From positions 1 to 6,329 of the forward strand of contig JAKSBB010000665.1 of the NCBI GenBank assembly GCA_022361315.1: 6,329 nucleotides of DNA, written 5' to 3'. The stretch comes from Desulfobacterales bacterium (GTDB taxonomy: Bacteria; Desulfobacterota; Desulfobacteria; Desulfobacterales; Desulfobacteraceae). Made by a program: the position numbers and the translations under genes. The notes beneath the pieces are model-generated. The model saw only the letters and a list, made by a program, of their open reading frames with translations. It was not told where the DNA came from and did no database searches. Shown here piece after piece: positions 1-6,329 of the stretch. Numbering within the stretch: position 1 is the first letter of the stretch; each line of letters opens with the position of its first letter.

Positions 1-183
1 CAGAACCGGGACAGCCAGATGCGCACCCTGCTCACCAACGAATTCGATCTCTCCCAGGAGCAGATCACGGCAGTGCCCTTTGTGGACGCCATCCCCATTG
101 ATGCCCGGTCCATCTGCCGGAGTATCCAGGACAATTTGACCACCGGGCCCGGAGCCCGTGACACCAAAGGAGGTGACGCATGA
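1..183 (+). CDS. korA: 2-oxoacid (probably 2-oxoglutarate):ferredoxin oxidoreductase subunit alpha, C-terminal end (5' truncated by window)
   Basis: Only the last 60 codons lie in the window, in an open frame from base 1 to the TGA at 181-183. The peptide begins QNRDSQMRTLL and later reads VPFVDAIPIDARSI. This 'E/Q-NRD-x-Q-M/L-x-x-LL' segment is typical of the C-terminal end of the alpha (pyrimidine-binding) subunit of 2-oxoacid:ferredoxin oxidoreductases. The identification rests mainly on the complete beta subunit that follows with a 4-base ATGA overlap, the standard korA-korB arrangement. In the complex the alpha subunit supplies the gamma-like and pyrimidine-binding domains, and the beta subunit supplies the diphosphate-binding half and the Fe-S cluster. 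The last residues (after about residue 48 of the fragment) are Gly/Asp-rich, and their DNA also carries the korB ribosome binding site. Substrate specificity cannot be read from this fragment. Confidence 0.8.
   Translation, partial: QNRDSQMRTLLTNEFDLSQEQITAVPFVDAIPIDARSICRSIQDNLTTGPGARDTKGGDA
166..176 (+). promoter_or_regulatory. Strong Shine-Dalgarno sequence for korB inside the end of korA
   Basis: AAAGGAGGTGA is close to a full complement of the 16S rRNA 3' end. The GGAGGT core ends six bases before the korB ATG at 180. It lies within the last codons of korA, whose stop overlaps the korB start, so the two subunits are probably translationally coupled and made in equal amounts. Confidence 0.85.
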
Positions 184-1232
184 GTTCCCGCCGACCCAAT
201 TTCCGCCACCCGGACCTGCCCACCAATGACCTGGGGTATACCCGCCGGGATTATGAAGGACTGGACTCGACACTGTGCGCCGGCTGCGGCCATGACTCCA
301 TTTCCAATGCCATTATCCAGGCCTGTTTTGAACTCTCGGTGCCCCCCCACCGCGTGGCCAAGGTTTCCGGTATCGGGTGCAGTTCCAAAACCCCCACCTA
401 TTTCCTGGGAAAATCCCACGGCTTCAACTCGGTCCACGGCCGGATGCCCTCCATCACCACCGGGGCCAATATGGCCAACAAAGACCTGCTGTACATCGGG
501 GTTTCCGGGGACGGAGACACCGCCTCCATCGGTATGGGCCAGTTTGTCCATGTGGCCCGCCGCAACATCAACATGGTCTATATCGTCATGAACAACGGCT
601 GCTACGGCCTGACCAAAGGCCAGGACTCAGCCACGGCAGACAAGGGTTCGGCCACCCGAAAGGGCCGTCCCAATCCCTTTGAGTCCATTGACCTGTGTGA
701 AATGGCCCTCCAGCTGGGCGCGGGTTTTGTGGCCCGGGGATTCTCCGGGGACAAGGCCCACCTGGTACCCATGATCAAAGCGGCGATCAAGCACAAGGGC
801 TTTGCCCTGGTGGACGTGGTCTCCCCCTGTGTGACCTTTAACAACAGCGCGTCCTCCACCAAGAGCTACCACTGGGTGCGGGACCATATGGAAGCCACGG
901 GCACCTTTGATTTTGTCCCCTTTCAGGAGGAAATCCTTGCCGAGGTCCCCCAGGGTTCGGACACCACCATCACCCTGCACGACGGCAGCCTCATCCGCCT
1001 TCATCAAAGCGATGATTCCCTGGATATCACCAGCCGGCGGGCTGCGGTTGATGCCCTGGCAGCGCACCGGGAAAAGGGGCAGCTTCTCACAGGCATCCTC
1101 CATGTGAACCAGAGCCAGACCGATACCCACGACATCCTCGAGACCACCGAGGCCCCCCTTAACACCCTGACGGAAAAAGAACTCTGCCCGGGCAACAAGG
1201 CTCTGGAAGAAATCACAGACAATTACAGGTAG
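180..1232 (+). CDS. korB: 2-oxoacid:ferredoxin oxidoreductase subunit beta (probable 2-oxoglutarate type)
   Basis: This 350-residue protein is the TPP-binding beta subunit of the cytoplasmic KorAB enzyme, which interconverts 2-oxoglutarate plus CoA with succinyl-CoA, CO2 and reduced ferredoxin. Visible signatures are CAGCGH at 33-38, GIGCSSK at 64-70, HGRMPSITTGANMAN at 86-100, the TPP/Mg motif GDGD at 110-113 with its NN partner at 138-139, and CYGLTKGQ at 141-148. Cys33, Cys36, Cys67 and Cys217 match in spacing the four [4Fe-4S] ligands known for two-subunit 2-oxoacid oxidoreductases. The YGLTKGQ form favours a 2-oxoglutarate or broad 2-oxoacid enzyme over a pyruvate enzyme, but specificity is inferred. 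About 90 residues follow the catalytic core (from about 255), including TLHDGS and TGILHV; similar tails occur in longer KorB proteins. The start is fixed by the strong ribosome binding site and the ATGA overlap with korA. A hairpin terminator follows the stop. Confidence 0.9.
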   Translation: MSSRRPNFRHPDLPTNDLGYTRRDYEGLDSTLCAGCGHDSISNAIIQACFELSVPPHRVAKVSGIGCSSKTPTYFLGKSHGFNSVHGRMPSITTGANMANKDLLYIGVSGDGDTASIGMGQFVHVARRNINMVYIVMNNGCYGLTKGQDSATADKGSATRKGRPNPFESIDLCEMALQLGAGFVARGFSGDKAHLVPMIKAAIKHKGFALVDVVSPCVTFNNSASSTKSYHWVRDHMEATGTFDFVPFQEEILAEVPQGSDTTITLHDGSLIRLHQSDDSLDITSRRAAVDALAAHREKGQLLTGILHVNQSQTDTHDILETTEAPLNTLTEKELCPGNKALEEITDNYR

Positions 1233-1331: not shown

Positions 1332-2441
1332 CTAAAACCACTTCTCGTAAATTTCTTTGTACACCCCGTCCTCTTTTAATTTCAACAGGGTCCGGTTGAT
1401 GGCCTCTTGGAGATGACTGTCCTCAGGAAAGGCAAACCCGTAGTGGTTGCCGGCAAAGCCTTTGCCCACCAGTGCCACGTTACGGTTATCCTTTTCATGG
1501 TGCATCAGTCCGGGGAGATCGTAGACCACGGCTTCTACTTCTTCATTCATCAGCAACGCATAGGCCTCGGCAATGGTGGGGACTTCAATGATAATTGCAT
1601 CGTACTTTTGCAGGACCTCCACGGCGTAGGTGTCTGCCTTTGTTGCCACGGTTTTCTTGCTCAAATGAATGGGGCCGGAGATCCTGGATTCCAGCACCTC
1701 AATGTCCCGGACAAGAAATGCGGCATTGATGGGGGCCATGATCAGGCTGAGGGCGATGACGCCTGTAATAAATATCGGCAATGTGGTGAGCCGCCCCAGG
1801 AACCGCTTGGGATAAACGTCGCCGAATCCGATGGTGGTTTTGATCATCCAGGCACACCAGACCGCATCCGGGTAACCGTCCTTAAAACTGTGCCGTATGA
1901 GATTCGAACCTTTTTCAGCCATCCAGAGCCAGAATCCCCAGAAAAGAAGGCATCCGAACAGCATGAGAAACAGCCCTGCGATTTCCCAAGTGAAGAGTTT
2001 GCCGGCGATAATGGGTAGAATCGATTGGTTCTCGACGGTTTTTTTAATCAGTATCCCAAGACCGGCATTGAACGTGGGGCTTGAAAAGTTCATATCCTCC
2101 TCACGTTCCGCAGTGATGGTGATGCCACCAATGGCAAGATCTACTTTTTTGGATCTTACATTGTCGAGTTTGGTTTTGAAATCACTATAAACGTACTCGA
2201 ATTTCCACTGGTTATCCCGGGCGATCTTTTCCCAGAGGTCGATTGCAAAGCCCTGAACAGAATCCTGCTCAAATTTCTGGTCAGATCCCTGCCCCGGGCC
2301 GCCCTGTTCGCCAAAGACAAAGGGTTTATAATAGCTGATCCCCACGAGAAGCGGTCGATCCTGTCCATAAGTCCCGCCGGACAGGACCAAAACTAAGATG
2401 AGGGTGTAAAAGACCTTACGGACCATTCTGCACATTCTCAT
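1332..2441 (-). CDS. GluR0-like ligand-gated potassium channel: split periplasmic amino-acid-binding domain with inserted TM-pore-TM module
   Basis: This 369-residue membrane protein has the order of a prokaryotic ionotropic glutamate receptor. Residues 1-26 look like a signal peptide (basic start, hydrophobic 11-20, then SGGTYG). Lobe S1 (about 29-145) contains GFAIDLW at 64-70 and GGITITAEREE at 105-115, followed by FSSP. Residues 150-174 form TM1, 192-208 a re-entrant pore with filter TIGFGD at 203-208, and 218-243 TM2. Lobe S2 (about 250-369) contains VVYDLP at 305-310. Thr108 and Arg113 align with the residues that hold the ligand alpha-carboxylate in iGluRs, and Asp308 is placed to bind its amino group, so an amino acid ligand is likely. 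The filter predicts K+ selectivity. Plain SBP proteins end after S2 and lack the insert. There are 13 bases after the kinase stop, with GGGG at 2449-2452 seven bases before the ATG; ATGs at codons 3 and 6 are alternatives. The fold call is firm; ligand and ion are inferred. Confidence 0.85.
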   Translation of the reverse strand: MRMCRMVRKVFYTLILVLVLSGGTYGQDRPLLVGISYYKPFVFGEQGGPGQGSDQKFEQDSVQGFAIDLWEKIARDNQWKFEYVYSDFKTKLDNVRSKKVDLAIGGITITAEREEDMNFSSPTFNAGLGILIKKTVENQSILPIIAGKLFTWEIAGLFLMLFGCLLFWGFWLWMAEKGSNLIRHSFKDGYPDAVWCAWMIKTTIGFGDVYPKRFLGRLTTLPIFITGVIALSLIMAPINAAFLVRDIEVLESRISGPIHLSKKTVATKADTYAVEVLQKYDAIIIEVPTIAEAYALLMNEEVEAVVYDLPGLMHHEKDNRNVALVGKGFAGNHYGFAFPEDSHLQEAINRTLLKLKEDGVYKEIYEKWF

Positions 2442-2454
2442 CGGCAGACCCCGG

Positions 2455-4179
2455 TTACAAATCCTGAAGGGCCTTCTTCAGGGTTTCAATGGAAAAGGGC
2501 TTGGACAGGGCGGATGAAAATCCGAAATAGGTGCAGTTTTCCATGGTGGGATCGTTGGAGTAGCCGGAGGCCACGATGCCCTTGATGCCGGGGTTGAGGG
2601 AAAGAAGTTTTTCCATGGCTTCCACGCCGCCCATGCCATGTTTGACTTCGAGATCCAGAATCACCTTGCCGATGATCTTTCCCTCCAGAAGGCAGGAGCG
2701 ATATTTATCCACCGCCTCTTCACCGGTTCTGGCCAGGACGGGTTCGTAGCCCAGGCGTTCGAGGATTTTCCCGGTGATCTCCAGGATCATGGCATCGTCA
2801 TCCATAAAGAGAACCAGGGGTTTGCGGCTGGAGATCCTCCGGACGGGGGGATTTTCCTTTTTAACGGACTTGGTGGCTGCGGCTGTGGGGCCTTCCTTCT
2901 GGAAGACGGGGAGAATCATGTCCACCTGGGTGCCCTGACCCGGGCTGGATTCGATGCGGATGGTGCCCTGGTGATTCTTCACGATGGCCCAGGCAATGGA
3001 AAGGCCGAGGCCGGTGCCCTTGCTTTTCCCCATGGGTTTGGTGGAGAAATAGGGGTCGAAGACTTTTTCAATATCCCCTTCCGCAATACCGCGGCCGTGG
3101 TCGGTGATGGAGATGAGGACCATGCCCTGCTTGTCCGGATGGCTTTTGGCTTCGATCTTCACGGGCTCGGCCTTGTCCATGGCTTCTCCCGCATTGATCA
3201 CGATGCTTCTAAAAGCTTCCTGAAGCTGTTCCTTGTCTGCCTCCATGACCGGAGGCAGGTCTTCAATGTTCAGGTTAAATTGAACACCGTGCTCGGCTTC
3301 CATGGGCTCCAGGGCATCGGTGATAAAGCCATGGGTGTCGATGTGGGATTTGATACGGATGCCACCGCCCTTGGAGAAGACCACAAACTTGGAGGCCAGT
3401 TCCTTGGCCTGGAGGATGGACTGCTCGGCGTCGGACAGGTACTCTTTCACCGGATCGCTGCTGGCGATCATCTGCGCCAGGTTGATATTTCCCAGAGTGA
3501 TGGACAGGGTGTTGTTAAAGTCGTGGGCAATGCCGCCGGCCAGGGTACCGATGGCTTCCAGCTTCTGGGAGCGCAGGAGGCGTTCCCGGGCCTGGAGGAG
3601 TTCGTTTTCCGCCCGTTTCTTTTCTATGGCCACGGCAATGGTTTCGGAGACAAAGCTGAGCAGCTCCACATGGTCCTGGTTGTATTTGATGGGATTGTTG
3701 TAACTTTTCACCGCCATGACGCCGAGGACATCCCCCTGGATCATCAGGGGAACCCCCAGCCAGTTTTTGGGAAGGCTGCCCAGGACCCGGCCTTTGGCCG
3801 CGAGTTGTCCCAGTTCTTTTTCGTCCAGAAGCAGGGGCTTTTTCTTGAGAATGACATCGCCGGTGAGGGAGGGGTTTTCCCTGAAATTATGAATCCATTT
3901 GGGTGAAAGGTCTGCCTCCTGGTCCCGGCGGAATACGTATTGGACGGCGTTTTTATCCTGGTAGTAAACAGCAATGAAAAAATTTGTCATGTCCATGAGA
4001 GAGGACAAATGCCTGTGGATGGACCGGTAGAGGTCCTGGAGGGTTTCACTGGTGTTCAGGGCGCTGGCAATATGGAAAAGGGTCTCGTTGACCAACTCTG
4101 CCCGGCGGGTCCTGGCAACGGTTTGTTCCAATCTTTTGATCTGCTGTTCAAGCTCTTCGTAACTGGGTTTGTCACTCAT
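2455..4179 (-). CDS. Cytoplasmic hybrid sensor histidine kinase (coiled coil - GAF - HisKA - HATPase - receiver)
   Basis: From the chosen ATG this is 574 residues with no membrane segment or signal peptide. A short coiled coil (about 6-27, SYEELEQQIKRLEQ) leads to a GAF-type sensor (about 32-187, with LGVPLMIQGDVLGVMAVKS at 141-159). A linker helix follows, then the HisKA H-box GGIAHDFNN with phospho-accepting His219. The ATPase domain shows the N-box (Asn329 in INAGEAM), G1 DHGRG at 360-364, F-box FDPYFSTK at 374-381 and G2 GTGLGL at 388-393. After a linker rich in Ala, Lys and Pro comes a receiver domain (about 455-574) with acidic DDD at 460-462, phospho-acceptor Asp509 before GMGG, Ser538 and Lys560. 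All catalytic residues are present, so it should be active. A receiver after the kinase core suggests a phosphorelay or self-tuning; no Hpt or DNA-binding partner is visible. It is the first gene of a unit with the channel gene. The GAF ligand is unknown. Confidence 0.9.
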   Translation of the reverse strand: MSDKPSYEELEQQIKRLEQTVARTRRAELVNETLFHIASALNTSETLQDLYRSIHRHLSSLMDMTNFFIAVYYQDKNAVQYVFRRDQEADLSPKWIHNFRENPSLTGDVILKKKPLLLDEKELGQLAAKGRVLGSLPKNWLGVPLMIQGDVLGVMAVKSYNNPIKYNQDHVELLSFVSETIAVAIEKKRAENELLQARERLLRSQKLEAIGTLAGGIAHDFNNTLSITLGNINLAQMIASSDPVKEYLSDAEQSILQAKELASKFVVFSKGGGIRIKSHIDTHGFITDALEPMEAEHGVQFNLNIEDLPPVMEADKEQLQEAFRSIVINAGEAMDKAEPVKIEAKSHPDKQGMVLISITDHGRGIAEGDIEKVFDPYFSTKPMGKSKGTGLGLSIAWAIVKNHQGTIRIESSPGQGTQVDMILPVFQKEGPTAAATKSVKKENPPVRRISSRKPLVLFMDDDAMILEITGKILERLGYEPVLARTGEEAVDKYRSCLLEGKIIGKVILDLEVKHGMGGVEAMEKLLSLNPGIKGIVASGYSNDPTMENCTYFGFSSALSKPFSIETLKKALQDL

Positions 4180-4184
4180 GAATG

Positions 4185-4190
4185 CCACCT
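4185..4190 (-). promoter_or_regulatory. Ribosome binding site that sets the kinase start at 4179
   Basis: On the minus strand AGGTGG occupies 4190-4185, five bases before ATG at 4179-4177. An upstream in-frame GTG at 4188-4186 would give three extra residues (MAF), but it lies within this Shine-Dalgarno sequence, so the ATG is preferred. Confidence 0.7.
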
Positions 4191-4475: not shown

Positions 4476-4527
4476 TAGCGTTTGTATATTTTTGGCCGTA
4501 ACCCTATATAAGCAAAGACGAAAGATA

Positions 4528-5781
4528 ATGCAGACCATACGCGGGTTTAGAGATATATTACCGGAGCACATTGCCCTGTGGCAGAAGGTGGAAAGAGAAG
4601 CTGCCGACCTTTTTGAATCATTCGGATACAGTGAAATCCGGATCCCCATTCTGGAGAAAACGGAGCTGTTTGCCAGAAGTATCGGGGAGACCACCGACAT
4701 TGTTGAAAAAGAAATGTATACCTTCGCGGACCGGAAAGGGGATAAGCTGACCCTCCGCCCGGAAGCCACCGCCTCCATCTGCCGGGCCTATATCCAGCAC
4801 AAGCTGTATGCCTCCGAGCCGGTGCAAAAATTCTACCTCTTCGGTCCCATGTTCCGCCGGGAACGTCCCCAGAAGGGCAGATACCGCCAGTTTTACCAGA
4901 TTGATGCCGAAGTATTCGGGGTTGAATCCGCTTATATTGACAGCGAACTCATCTTCCTGCTCAACGAGCTGTTCAAGCGGCTGGGCCTGACGGGGCTGTC
5001 CGCCCATATCAACAGCCTGGGCTGCCCGGAATGCCGCCCCGCCTATCAGCAGGCACTGTTGGATTTCCTGGGGGAACGCAAGGAAACCCTGTGCACGGAC
5101 TGCAAACGCCGGATCGAAAAGAATCCCCTGCGGGTACTGGACTGCAAGGTGGAAACCTGCAGAGAGGCATTGAAAGGCGCCCCCACCACCGTTGATCACC
5201 TGTGCGAGGGCTGCGACGACCACTTCAAAACGGTTCGCGCCTCCCTGATCCGCCAGGGGGTAGACTTCAAGGTGGATCACGCCCTGGTCCGCGGCCTGGA
5301 TTATTACACAAGGACGGCCTGGGAAATTCAGACCACCAGCCTCGGTGCCCAGTCTGCGGTGGCCGGCGGTGGCCGGTATGACCGTCTTGTGGAAGAGCTG
5401 GGTGGCCCTGCCACACCTGCCATCGGTTTTGCCATCGGTTTTGACCGCCTGGTGGAGGTGATGGATCAGCTGGGAACCCAGGTTGATGAAAAGGCACTGG
5501 ACCTCTTTATCGTTCCCCTGGGCAACGCAGCCATGGACCTGAGCTACCACTGGTCCTGCGACCTGAACCGCGAGGGCGTCCGCACCGACACCGATTTCAG
5601 GGGCAAAAGCATGAAGGCCCTGATGAAAAGAGCCAATAAGCTTTCGGCCCGCTACGTGCTGATCGCCGGGGAAAACGAATTGTCGGAGAACAAGGCCATC
5701 CTCCGGAACATGGAAACAAAAGAACAGACCGATATTCCCGTGGATTCACTGGTTACCGATCTTGTGAAAATTTTAAAATAA
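4528..5781 (+). CDS. hisS: Histidine--tRNA ligase (HisRS)
   Basis: This complete 417-residue cytoplasmic class II aminoacyl-tRNA synthetase attaches histidine to tRNA-His; its length is normal for bacterial HisRS. The N-terminus IRGFRDILP (4-12) is the family's usual beginning. Motif 2 is FRRERPQKGRYRQFYQID (109-126), the histidine-binding HisA block is LVRGLDYYT (253-261), the Gly-rich block AGGGRYD is at 279-285, and motif 3 is GFAIGFDRL (300-308). The anticodon-binding domain fills about 325-417 (LFIVPLG at 326-332, DFRGKSMKALMKRAN at 356-370). The middle segment has four CxxC or single-Cys groups (166/169, 189/192, 206/211, 226/229), which could bind a metal. The frame stays open upstream to a TTG at 4492, but the ATG at 4528 gives the standard N-terminus; its ribosome binding site is weak (GAAAGA just upstream). 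aspS follows after 34 bases, probably co-transcribed. Confidence 0.96.
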   Translation: MQTIRGFRDILPEHIALWQKVEREAADLFESFGYSEIRIPILEKTELFARSIGETTDIVEKEMYTFADRKGDKLTLRPEATASICRAYIQHKLYASEPVQKFYLFGPMFRRERPQKGRYRQFYQIDAEVFGVESAYIDSELIFLLNELFKRLGLTGLSAHINSLGCPECRPAYQQALLDFLGERKETLCTDCKRRIEKNPLRVLDCKVETCREALKGAPTTVDHLCEGCDDHFKTVRASLIRQGVDFKVDHALVRGLDYYTRTAWEIQTTSLGAQSAVAGGGRYDRLVEELGGPATPAIGFAIGFDRLVEVMDQLGTQVDEKALDLFIVPLGNAAMDLSYHWSCDLNREGVRTDTDFRGKSMKALMKRANKLSARYVLIAGENELSENKAILRNMETKEQTDIPVDSLVTDLVKILK

Positions 5782-5815: not shown

Positions 5816-6329
5816 GTGACTGATTTACTCGGGAGTATGACCCGCACACATACCTGTATTGAACTGAGAGACACCCATATTGACCAGGAAGTTGTGCTCA
5901 TGGGATGGGTTCAGCACCGCCGGGACCACGGCGGGGTTATCTTTGTGGACCTCCGGGACCGGGAAGGCATTACCCAGGTGGTTTTCAACCCGGTGGTATC
6001 CGAAGCCGTCCATGCCAAAGCCCAGGAAATCAGGAGCGAGTATGTCCTGGGTGTCCGGGGCAAGGTTTCTGCTAGGCCCGGCAGCATGCTGAACCCCAAC
6101 ATGGCCACCGGCGCCATTGAAATTCTGGTGGAGGAACTCAAGATTTTCTCCCGGGCCAAAACCCCTGCCTTCCAGATCGAAGACCGGGTGGAAGCCTCCG
6201 AAAGTATCCGGCTGCAGTACCGGTATCTGGACCTGAGACGGAACCAGCTCAAGAACAACATCCTGGCCCGCCACAAGGCCACCATGGCCGTCCGCAACTA
6301 CCTGGACGACAGCGGATTCGTGGACATCG
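5816..6329 (+). CDS. aspS: Aspartate--tRNA ligase, N-terminal part (3' truncated by window)
   Basis: The frame stays open from GTG at 5816 to the window end, giving 171 residues of a protein expected to be about 590. Residues 8-110 form the OB-fold anticodon-binding domain of bacterial AspRS: GWVQHRRDHGG (30-40), FVDLRDREGITQVVF (43-57) and NPNMATGAIEIL (93-104). RYLDLRR (136-142) marks entry to the class II catalytic domain, and the last residues (FVDI) lead into motif 1. It attaches aspartate to tRNA-Asp in the cytoplasm. His38 replaces the Leu seen in E. coli AspRS ('RRRDLG'), and Ser90 stands where E. coli has Lys; this pattern leans toward a non-discriminating enzyme that also makes Asp-tRNA-Asn. 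The spacing from hisS (34 bases, no terminator) suggests one operon. The catalytic core and GAD insertion lie outside the window. Confidence 0.95.
   Translation, partial: MTDLLGSMTRTHTCIELRDTHIDQEVVLMGWVQHRRDHGGVIFVDLRDREGITQVVFNPVVSEAVHAKAQEIRSEYVLGVRGKVSARPGSMLNPNMATGAIEILVEELKIFSRAKTPAFQIEDRVEASESIRLQYRYLDLRRNQLKNNILARHKATMAVRNYLDDSGFVDI

Follow-up and report, generated by a model that had tools for sequence, protein, structure and literature searches.

A predicted GluR0-type ligand-gated channel encoded by a Desulfobacterales bacterium

The window analyzed here is a 6,329-nucleotide stretch of a Desulfobacterales bacterium (assembly GCA_022361315.1, contig JAKSBB010000665.1). Its minus strand carries a GluR0-like open reading frame (ORF) of 369 aa (2441..1332) that very probably encodes a GluR0-type prokaryotic ionotropic glutamate receptor (iGluR), in which an amino acid would close a periplasmic clamshell and open an inverted K+ pore. 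The GluR0 type is already known from cyanobacteria, and the window adds a clear member. Computation establishes the architecture of this channel, its monomer fold, a K+-type filter and a conserved ligand clamp.

Architecture and fold of the channel

The original prediction placed a 369-residue chain at 1332..2441, and the ORF has these coordinates on the minus strand; the plus-strand frame of the same interval contains four stops. The gene and its parts are as follows, TM1 and TM2 being the transmembrane (TM) helices.

1332..2441, minus strand: coding sequence of a predicted GluR0-like ligand-gated K+ channel, 369 aa (stop codon 1332-1334; alternative starts M3 and M6)
2364..2441, minus strand: predicted signal peptide, residues about 1-26 (four K/R, hydrophobic core; helix 3-22 in the model)
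1989..2363, minus strand: S1 lobe of the binding domain, residues 27-151 (Lig_chan-Glu_bd at 39-135; alignments)
2103..2105, minus strand: codon of R113, predicted ligand alpha-carboxylate Arg (conservation)
1914..1988, minus strand: TM1, residues 152-176 (model helix; hydropathy)
1818..1886, minus strand: pore helix and selectivity filter, residues 186-208, with TTIGFGD at 202-208 (Ion_trans_2; G207, D208)
1704..1802, minus strand: TM2, residues 214-246 (model helix; hydropathy)
1335..1703, minus strand: S2 lobe of the binding domain, residues 247-369 (SBP_bac_3; 243-369 matches 2pyy)
1518..1520, minus strand: codon of D308, predicted ligand alpha-amino Asp (conservation)

Pfam, hydropathy and a structural model agree on the proposed order of a putative signal peptide, S1, TM1, pore, TM2 and S2, and on placement in the GluR0 class. 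Among the families that had been suggested for a search, SBP_bac_3 matched over residues 59-369 (1.4e-27) and Ion_trans_2 (PF07885) at 185-238 (1.1e-7, 32 bits against a cut-off of 22.5), both above their cut-offs, as did the iGluR glutamate-binding model Lig_chan-Glu_bd at 39-135 (2.6e-10). Ion_trans reached 20.7 bits, below its cut-off of 25, and the scan of the channel protein returned neither a Lig_chan (PF00060) match nor an ABC permease domain. The two halves of SBP_bac_3 enclose the channel domain, and the clamshell is therefore not continuous in the chain but split by the pore unit.

In the hydropathy profile, the chain starts like a signal peptide, with an n-region of four K/R followed by a hydrophobic core (Kyte-Doolittle value, KD, 2.45), and two later hydrophobic stretches appear in 19-residue segments starting at 141-158 and 214-229. 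Because no hydrophobic segment lies past residue about 247, there is no M4-like helix after S2. An AlphaFold monomer model built with 30 sequences (mean predicted local distance difference test score, pLDDT, 88.2; predicted template modeling score, pTM, 0.70) places helices 152-176, 186-206 and 214-246 between two well-predicted lobes, bearing out the TM-pore-TM unit proposed for residues 150-243. A single binding domain is divided into S1 and S2, with two TM helices and a pore loop lying between them, and in both Pfam and the model S1 follows directly on the signal-peptide-like segment, with no amino-terminal domain (ATD). A 13-residue insert in S1, at about 47-59, has low pLDDT and is missing from the 29 other rows of a 30-row alignment. 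Each loop flanking the pore segment contains three K/R, which fits a cytoplasmic pore loop; in GluR0, PhoA fusions, part of them without statistical significance, placed that loop in the cytoplasm (PMC13099474).

It is hardly credible that the protein is instead the solute-binding protein of an ABC amino-acid transporter with a membrane insertion and no channel function. Some homologues do bear the source name "polar amino acid transport system substrate-binding protein", however, the K+ filter and pore fold are conserved, the protein has no Pfam permease domain, and the Pfam scan found no ABC permease or ATPase in three neighboring proteins. A plain ABC binding protein finds no support in the Pfam domain layout or the pore unit of the model; GlnH, unlike the window channel, has no membrane insertion and works with an ABC transporter. 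Of 36 homologous proteins, query included, 33 pair a channel-type Pfam domain (Ion_trans_2, Ion_trans or Lig_chan) with SBP_bac_3, the pairing being absent from P0034-P0036, so the homologues are not all ABC permease fusions or plain binding proteins, a case the original prediction had raised.

The closest described counterpart is of the GluR0 kind. Synechocystis GluR0 (Slr1257; ligand-binding domain, LBD, 1ii5/1iit) likewise joins S1-TM1-P-TM2-S2 in one chain with no N-terminal domain or M4, and shares the K+-type filter and the Arg/Asp clamp. It is cyanobacterial, its binding core is 33% identical to that of the window over the VIA alignment, and its filter is given as Gly-Tyr-Gly in a 2026 paper (PMC13099474), whereas the window has GFGD. 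The binding core of the Nostoc punctiforme GluR0 homologue (2pyy, a PDB entry of the LBD only) is 37% identical. According to PMC2950845, Group 1 prokaryotic iGluRs also have S1 and S2 around two TM helices and a pore loop, an Ion_trans_2-type filter, and conserved Arg and Asp. Animal iGluRs (AMPA, NMDA, kainate) share the clamshell with an inserted inverted pore and the gapless TIT..REE..FS.P segment, but the window channel lacks their ATD, M4 and Lig_chan match, and its filter is of the K+ type.

Ligand clamp and predicted gating

As had been claimed, the S1 match to eukaryotic iGluRs has no gaps: residues 96-138 and GluA2 chain residues 79-121 are of equal length. R113, G207 and D208 are invariant across the 30 aligned rows, and D308 is kept in 90% or more of them. 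Of the 83 rows of a broader set, 70 keep R113 and 69 keep D308, supporting the predicted role of R113 as the ligand-carboxylate Arg. K268 lines up by eye with a Lys in glutamine-binding protein, a residue that may bear on a preference for Glu or Gln, and 19 of the 24 rows with a GFGD filter retain K268 (24/83, a count that is biased because TTIGFGD stood in the scan pattern used to collect loci).

We hypothesize that S1 and S2 are exported and form a periplasmic clamshell, with an alpha-amino acid between the lobes, R113 holding its carboxylate and D308 its amino group. Closure of the clamshell would pull on the S1-TM1 and S2-TM2 linkers and open a tetrameric inverted K+-channel pore, the TTIGFGD filter lying near the cytoplasmic side, such that an external amino acid would produce a K+ flux and change the membrane potential or turgor. 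We infer the tetramer and the amino-acid class of the ligand, and by analogy the ligand, gating and K+ selectivity would be those of GluR0. The amino-acid sensing and the potassium current of the original prediction are best worded as expectations.

It is unlikely, though worth weighing, that the gating ligand of a channel with this fold is no alpha-amino acid but, for example, another small metabolite, or that the channel is largely constitutive. The SBP_bac_3 fold accommodates many ligands, and R113 and/or D308 are altered in 16 of the 83 relatives, spread over several tree branches, and therefore the ligand class varies across the family. The window protein and its 11-row clade nevertheless retain the R113/D308 pair, and the proteins most similar to it, by sequence and by fold, bind Gln, Glu or Arg.

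For the amino-acid-gated channel that we favor, a physiological role is suggested by Synechocystis, where a GluR0 deletion mutant grew better on high-KCl agar, though not in liquid, and shrank faster after KCl upshock (PMC13099474). Because of these phenotypes, the window channel may by analogy reasonably be given a role in ionic, osmotic or turgor adjustment. The protein is small enough for structure determination and electrophysiology.

Relatives and distribution

BLAST gives identities of 62-72% for the ten nearest proteins (the 30-row alignment goes up to 74%), and one of the ten, P0011 (locus L001, 66%), comes from a Desulfobacteraceae metagenome-assembled genome (MAG). In a tree of a quick kind with 83 rows, the window groups with P0002 and P0003 (support 99) in an 11-row clade (100) within a 20-row clade (96). 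The tree leaves out cores shorter than 260 aa, L132 for want of a pore, L105 as a duplicate of L151, and also P0011, P0018, P0030 and P0034-P0036; L006, P0020 and the Nitrospirota rows carry long-branch warnings. The 20-row clade consists mostly of TTIGFGD proteins and includes L165 (Victivallales; the same stretch as L003) and L002. TTIGFGD rows do not form one supported clade, as the 20-row clade also holds P0019 (SKVIFGD) and L006 falls outside it; four Nitrospirota TTIGFGD proteins join it at 84 only, under the long-branch warning.

GFGD is the filter of the window's clade, one member of which sits on an archaeal contig. The L002 channel gene (L002:6974-8077, plus strand) lies in a single MAG, on a 75-kb contig labeled archaeon (G002:C8) that also encodes archaeal-type IF-2 (aIF-2) and an archaeal-type glutamyl-tRNA synthetase, both above NCBIfam cut-offs; its protein is identical to that of the window at 151 of 348 aligned residues. 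The 2010 survey in PMC2950845 found no archaeal members, and the clade comparison was made apart from the 12 proteins listed there for Group 1.

GluR0-like channels are patchily distributed in the Desulfobacterota order examined: at least 37 of 389 genomes from the order to which G001 (the L001 genome) belongs give a match at E<=1e-30, and at least 5 of 86 from its family do so at E<=1e-40. These tallies are lower bounds because at most five first-look candidates were scored per genome (24 for the 86-genome family tally). Among the candidates scored, one of 86 genomes in the family and one of 389 in the class did better than 1e-100, each time G001 itself. With these numbers, and with 22 prokaryotic members in the 2010 survey by Ger et al. 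(PMC2950845), the class is somewhat less rare than had been suggested. Literature titles and abstract openings, among the matches listed, named no GluR0-type channel from Desulfobacterota, a check that stands apart from the Group 1 species of the 2010 survey.

Gene neighborhoods and sensor fusions

The channel gene is flanked by genes for a hybrid kinase and a thiamine pyrophosphate (TPP)-enzyme protein.

2455..4188, minus strand: hybrid histidine kinase with GAF, HisKA (weak, below cut-off), HATPase and receiver domains, upstream of the channel
180-1232, plus strand: TPP-enzyme protein resembling 2-oxoacid:ferredoxin oxidoreductase beta subunits (below NCBIfam cut-offs)
4492-5781, plus strand: histidyl-tRNA synthetase
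5817-6329, plus strand: partial ORF, aspartyl-tRNA synthetase-like by eye

The kinase has no TM-like segment (peak KD 1.27). Its gene ends 13 bp before the channel start on the same strand, the minus strand has no terminator-like site in the gap, and the two genes are possibly co-transcribed. This arrangement would suit a dedicated signaling unit, in which a soluble kinase would read the ligand-dependent K+ flux or change in potential, but we consider such a unit quite improbable since the pairing is not conserved. Within the 11-row clade, gene context exists for L001 alone, which has an Fe-S oxidoreductase-like gene and one for a small cysteine-rich protein upstream (named by eye). By blastp with the window kinase, 6 of 53 other loci have a kinase-like gene no more than three ORFs away (24-31% identity), and it is immediately adjacent at only one of the six, L112; L132 and many loci cut by contig ends are among the 53. 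The L001 context and this count do not support a conserved operon of channel and histidine kinase.

The most unusual material lies in the relatives rather than in the window. Five GluR0-like ORFs from the order matches have an in-frame N-terminal OpuAC (glycine betaine binding) domain (E 1.7e-20 to 2.8e-52) and a TTVGYGD filter, and three are complete (727-734 aa).

L120:3285-5468, minus strand: OpuAC-channel fusion
L121:3097-5301, minus strand: OpuAC-channel fusion
L122:2983-5184, minus strand: OpuAC-channel fusion
L123:1-1977, plus strand: OpuAC-channel fusion, 5' open
L124:2092-3603, minus strand: OpuAC-channel fusion, 5' open

At L120 and L121 an additional OpuAC ORF overlaps the fusion start, and at L148 the OpuAC gene is a separate, overlapping ORF just upstream of the channel; L148 and the five fusions form one tree branch (99). 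The fusions may be two-sensor receptors. If they work as they look, they would be natural two-sensor K+ channels, a bacterial parallel to the ATD of animal glutamate receptors, and a link from osmolyte sensing to K+ release would be directly testable. No published OpuAC-iGluR fusion was found in the open-access literature of one library.

At L140:1748-5109 (minus strand) and L142:2372-5853 (plus strand), the channel gene is directly followed by one for a 752-776 aa fusion of a periplasmic-binding-protein domain and a pentameric-channel-like part. Both proteins have an N-terminal Peripla_BP_6/ANF_receptor domain, and Neur_chan_memb falls below cut-off in both; the C-terminal part of the L142 protein matches pentameric ligand-gated channels (4.6e-9 to a proton-gated/GABA-A chimera, 3.1e-7 to 6v4a). 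At L126:6613-10791 (plus strand), a fusion protein of the same family (76% by tblastn) follows the channel gene with one ORF in between. Judged from sequence, relatives of two neurotransmitter receptor classes stand side by side at these loci. Full-length relatives of the L142-type fusion (65% identity or more) occur in 5 of 14 genomes searched, its own included, and in two of the five (G219, G148) the fusion and channel genes sit on different contigs.

We tentatively speculate that the window channel represents the single-sensor type within a broader iGluR toolkit of prokaryotes, one that would be frequent in Desulfobacterota and couple external amino acids and compatible solutes to K+ flux for turgor control. 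Some receptors of the toolkit would have independently gained an ATD-like OpuAC clamshell, and some would be encoded together with pentameric channels that carry a periplasmic-binding-protein domain.

Other relatives have further arrangements. In Nitrospirota, L004:5817-7999 and L005:5500-7724 (both plus strand) each contain a tandem pair of GluR0-like ORFs, with overlaps of 13 and 25 bases. The four ORFs were all aligned without the Arg and Asp ligand residues, an alignment that is unsure and involves long branches; these pairs are possibly heteromeric channels with another ligand. At L139:870-4399 (plus strand), a gene for an MscS-type mechanosensitive channel lies 17 bp upstream of a GluR0-like channel without the Arg/Asp clamp. 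The GluR0-like gene is followed by a chemoreceptor gene at L130:179-3433 and L131:4051-8340 (both plus strand), and at L134:1161-4999 (plus strand) and L135:2-4318 (minus strand) by one for an SBP_bac_3-PAS sensor protein cut by the end of the stretch.
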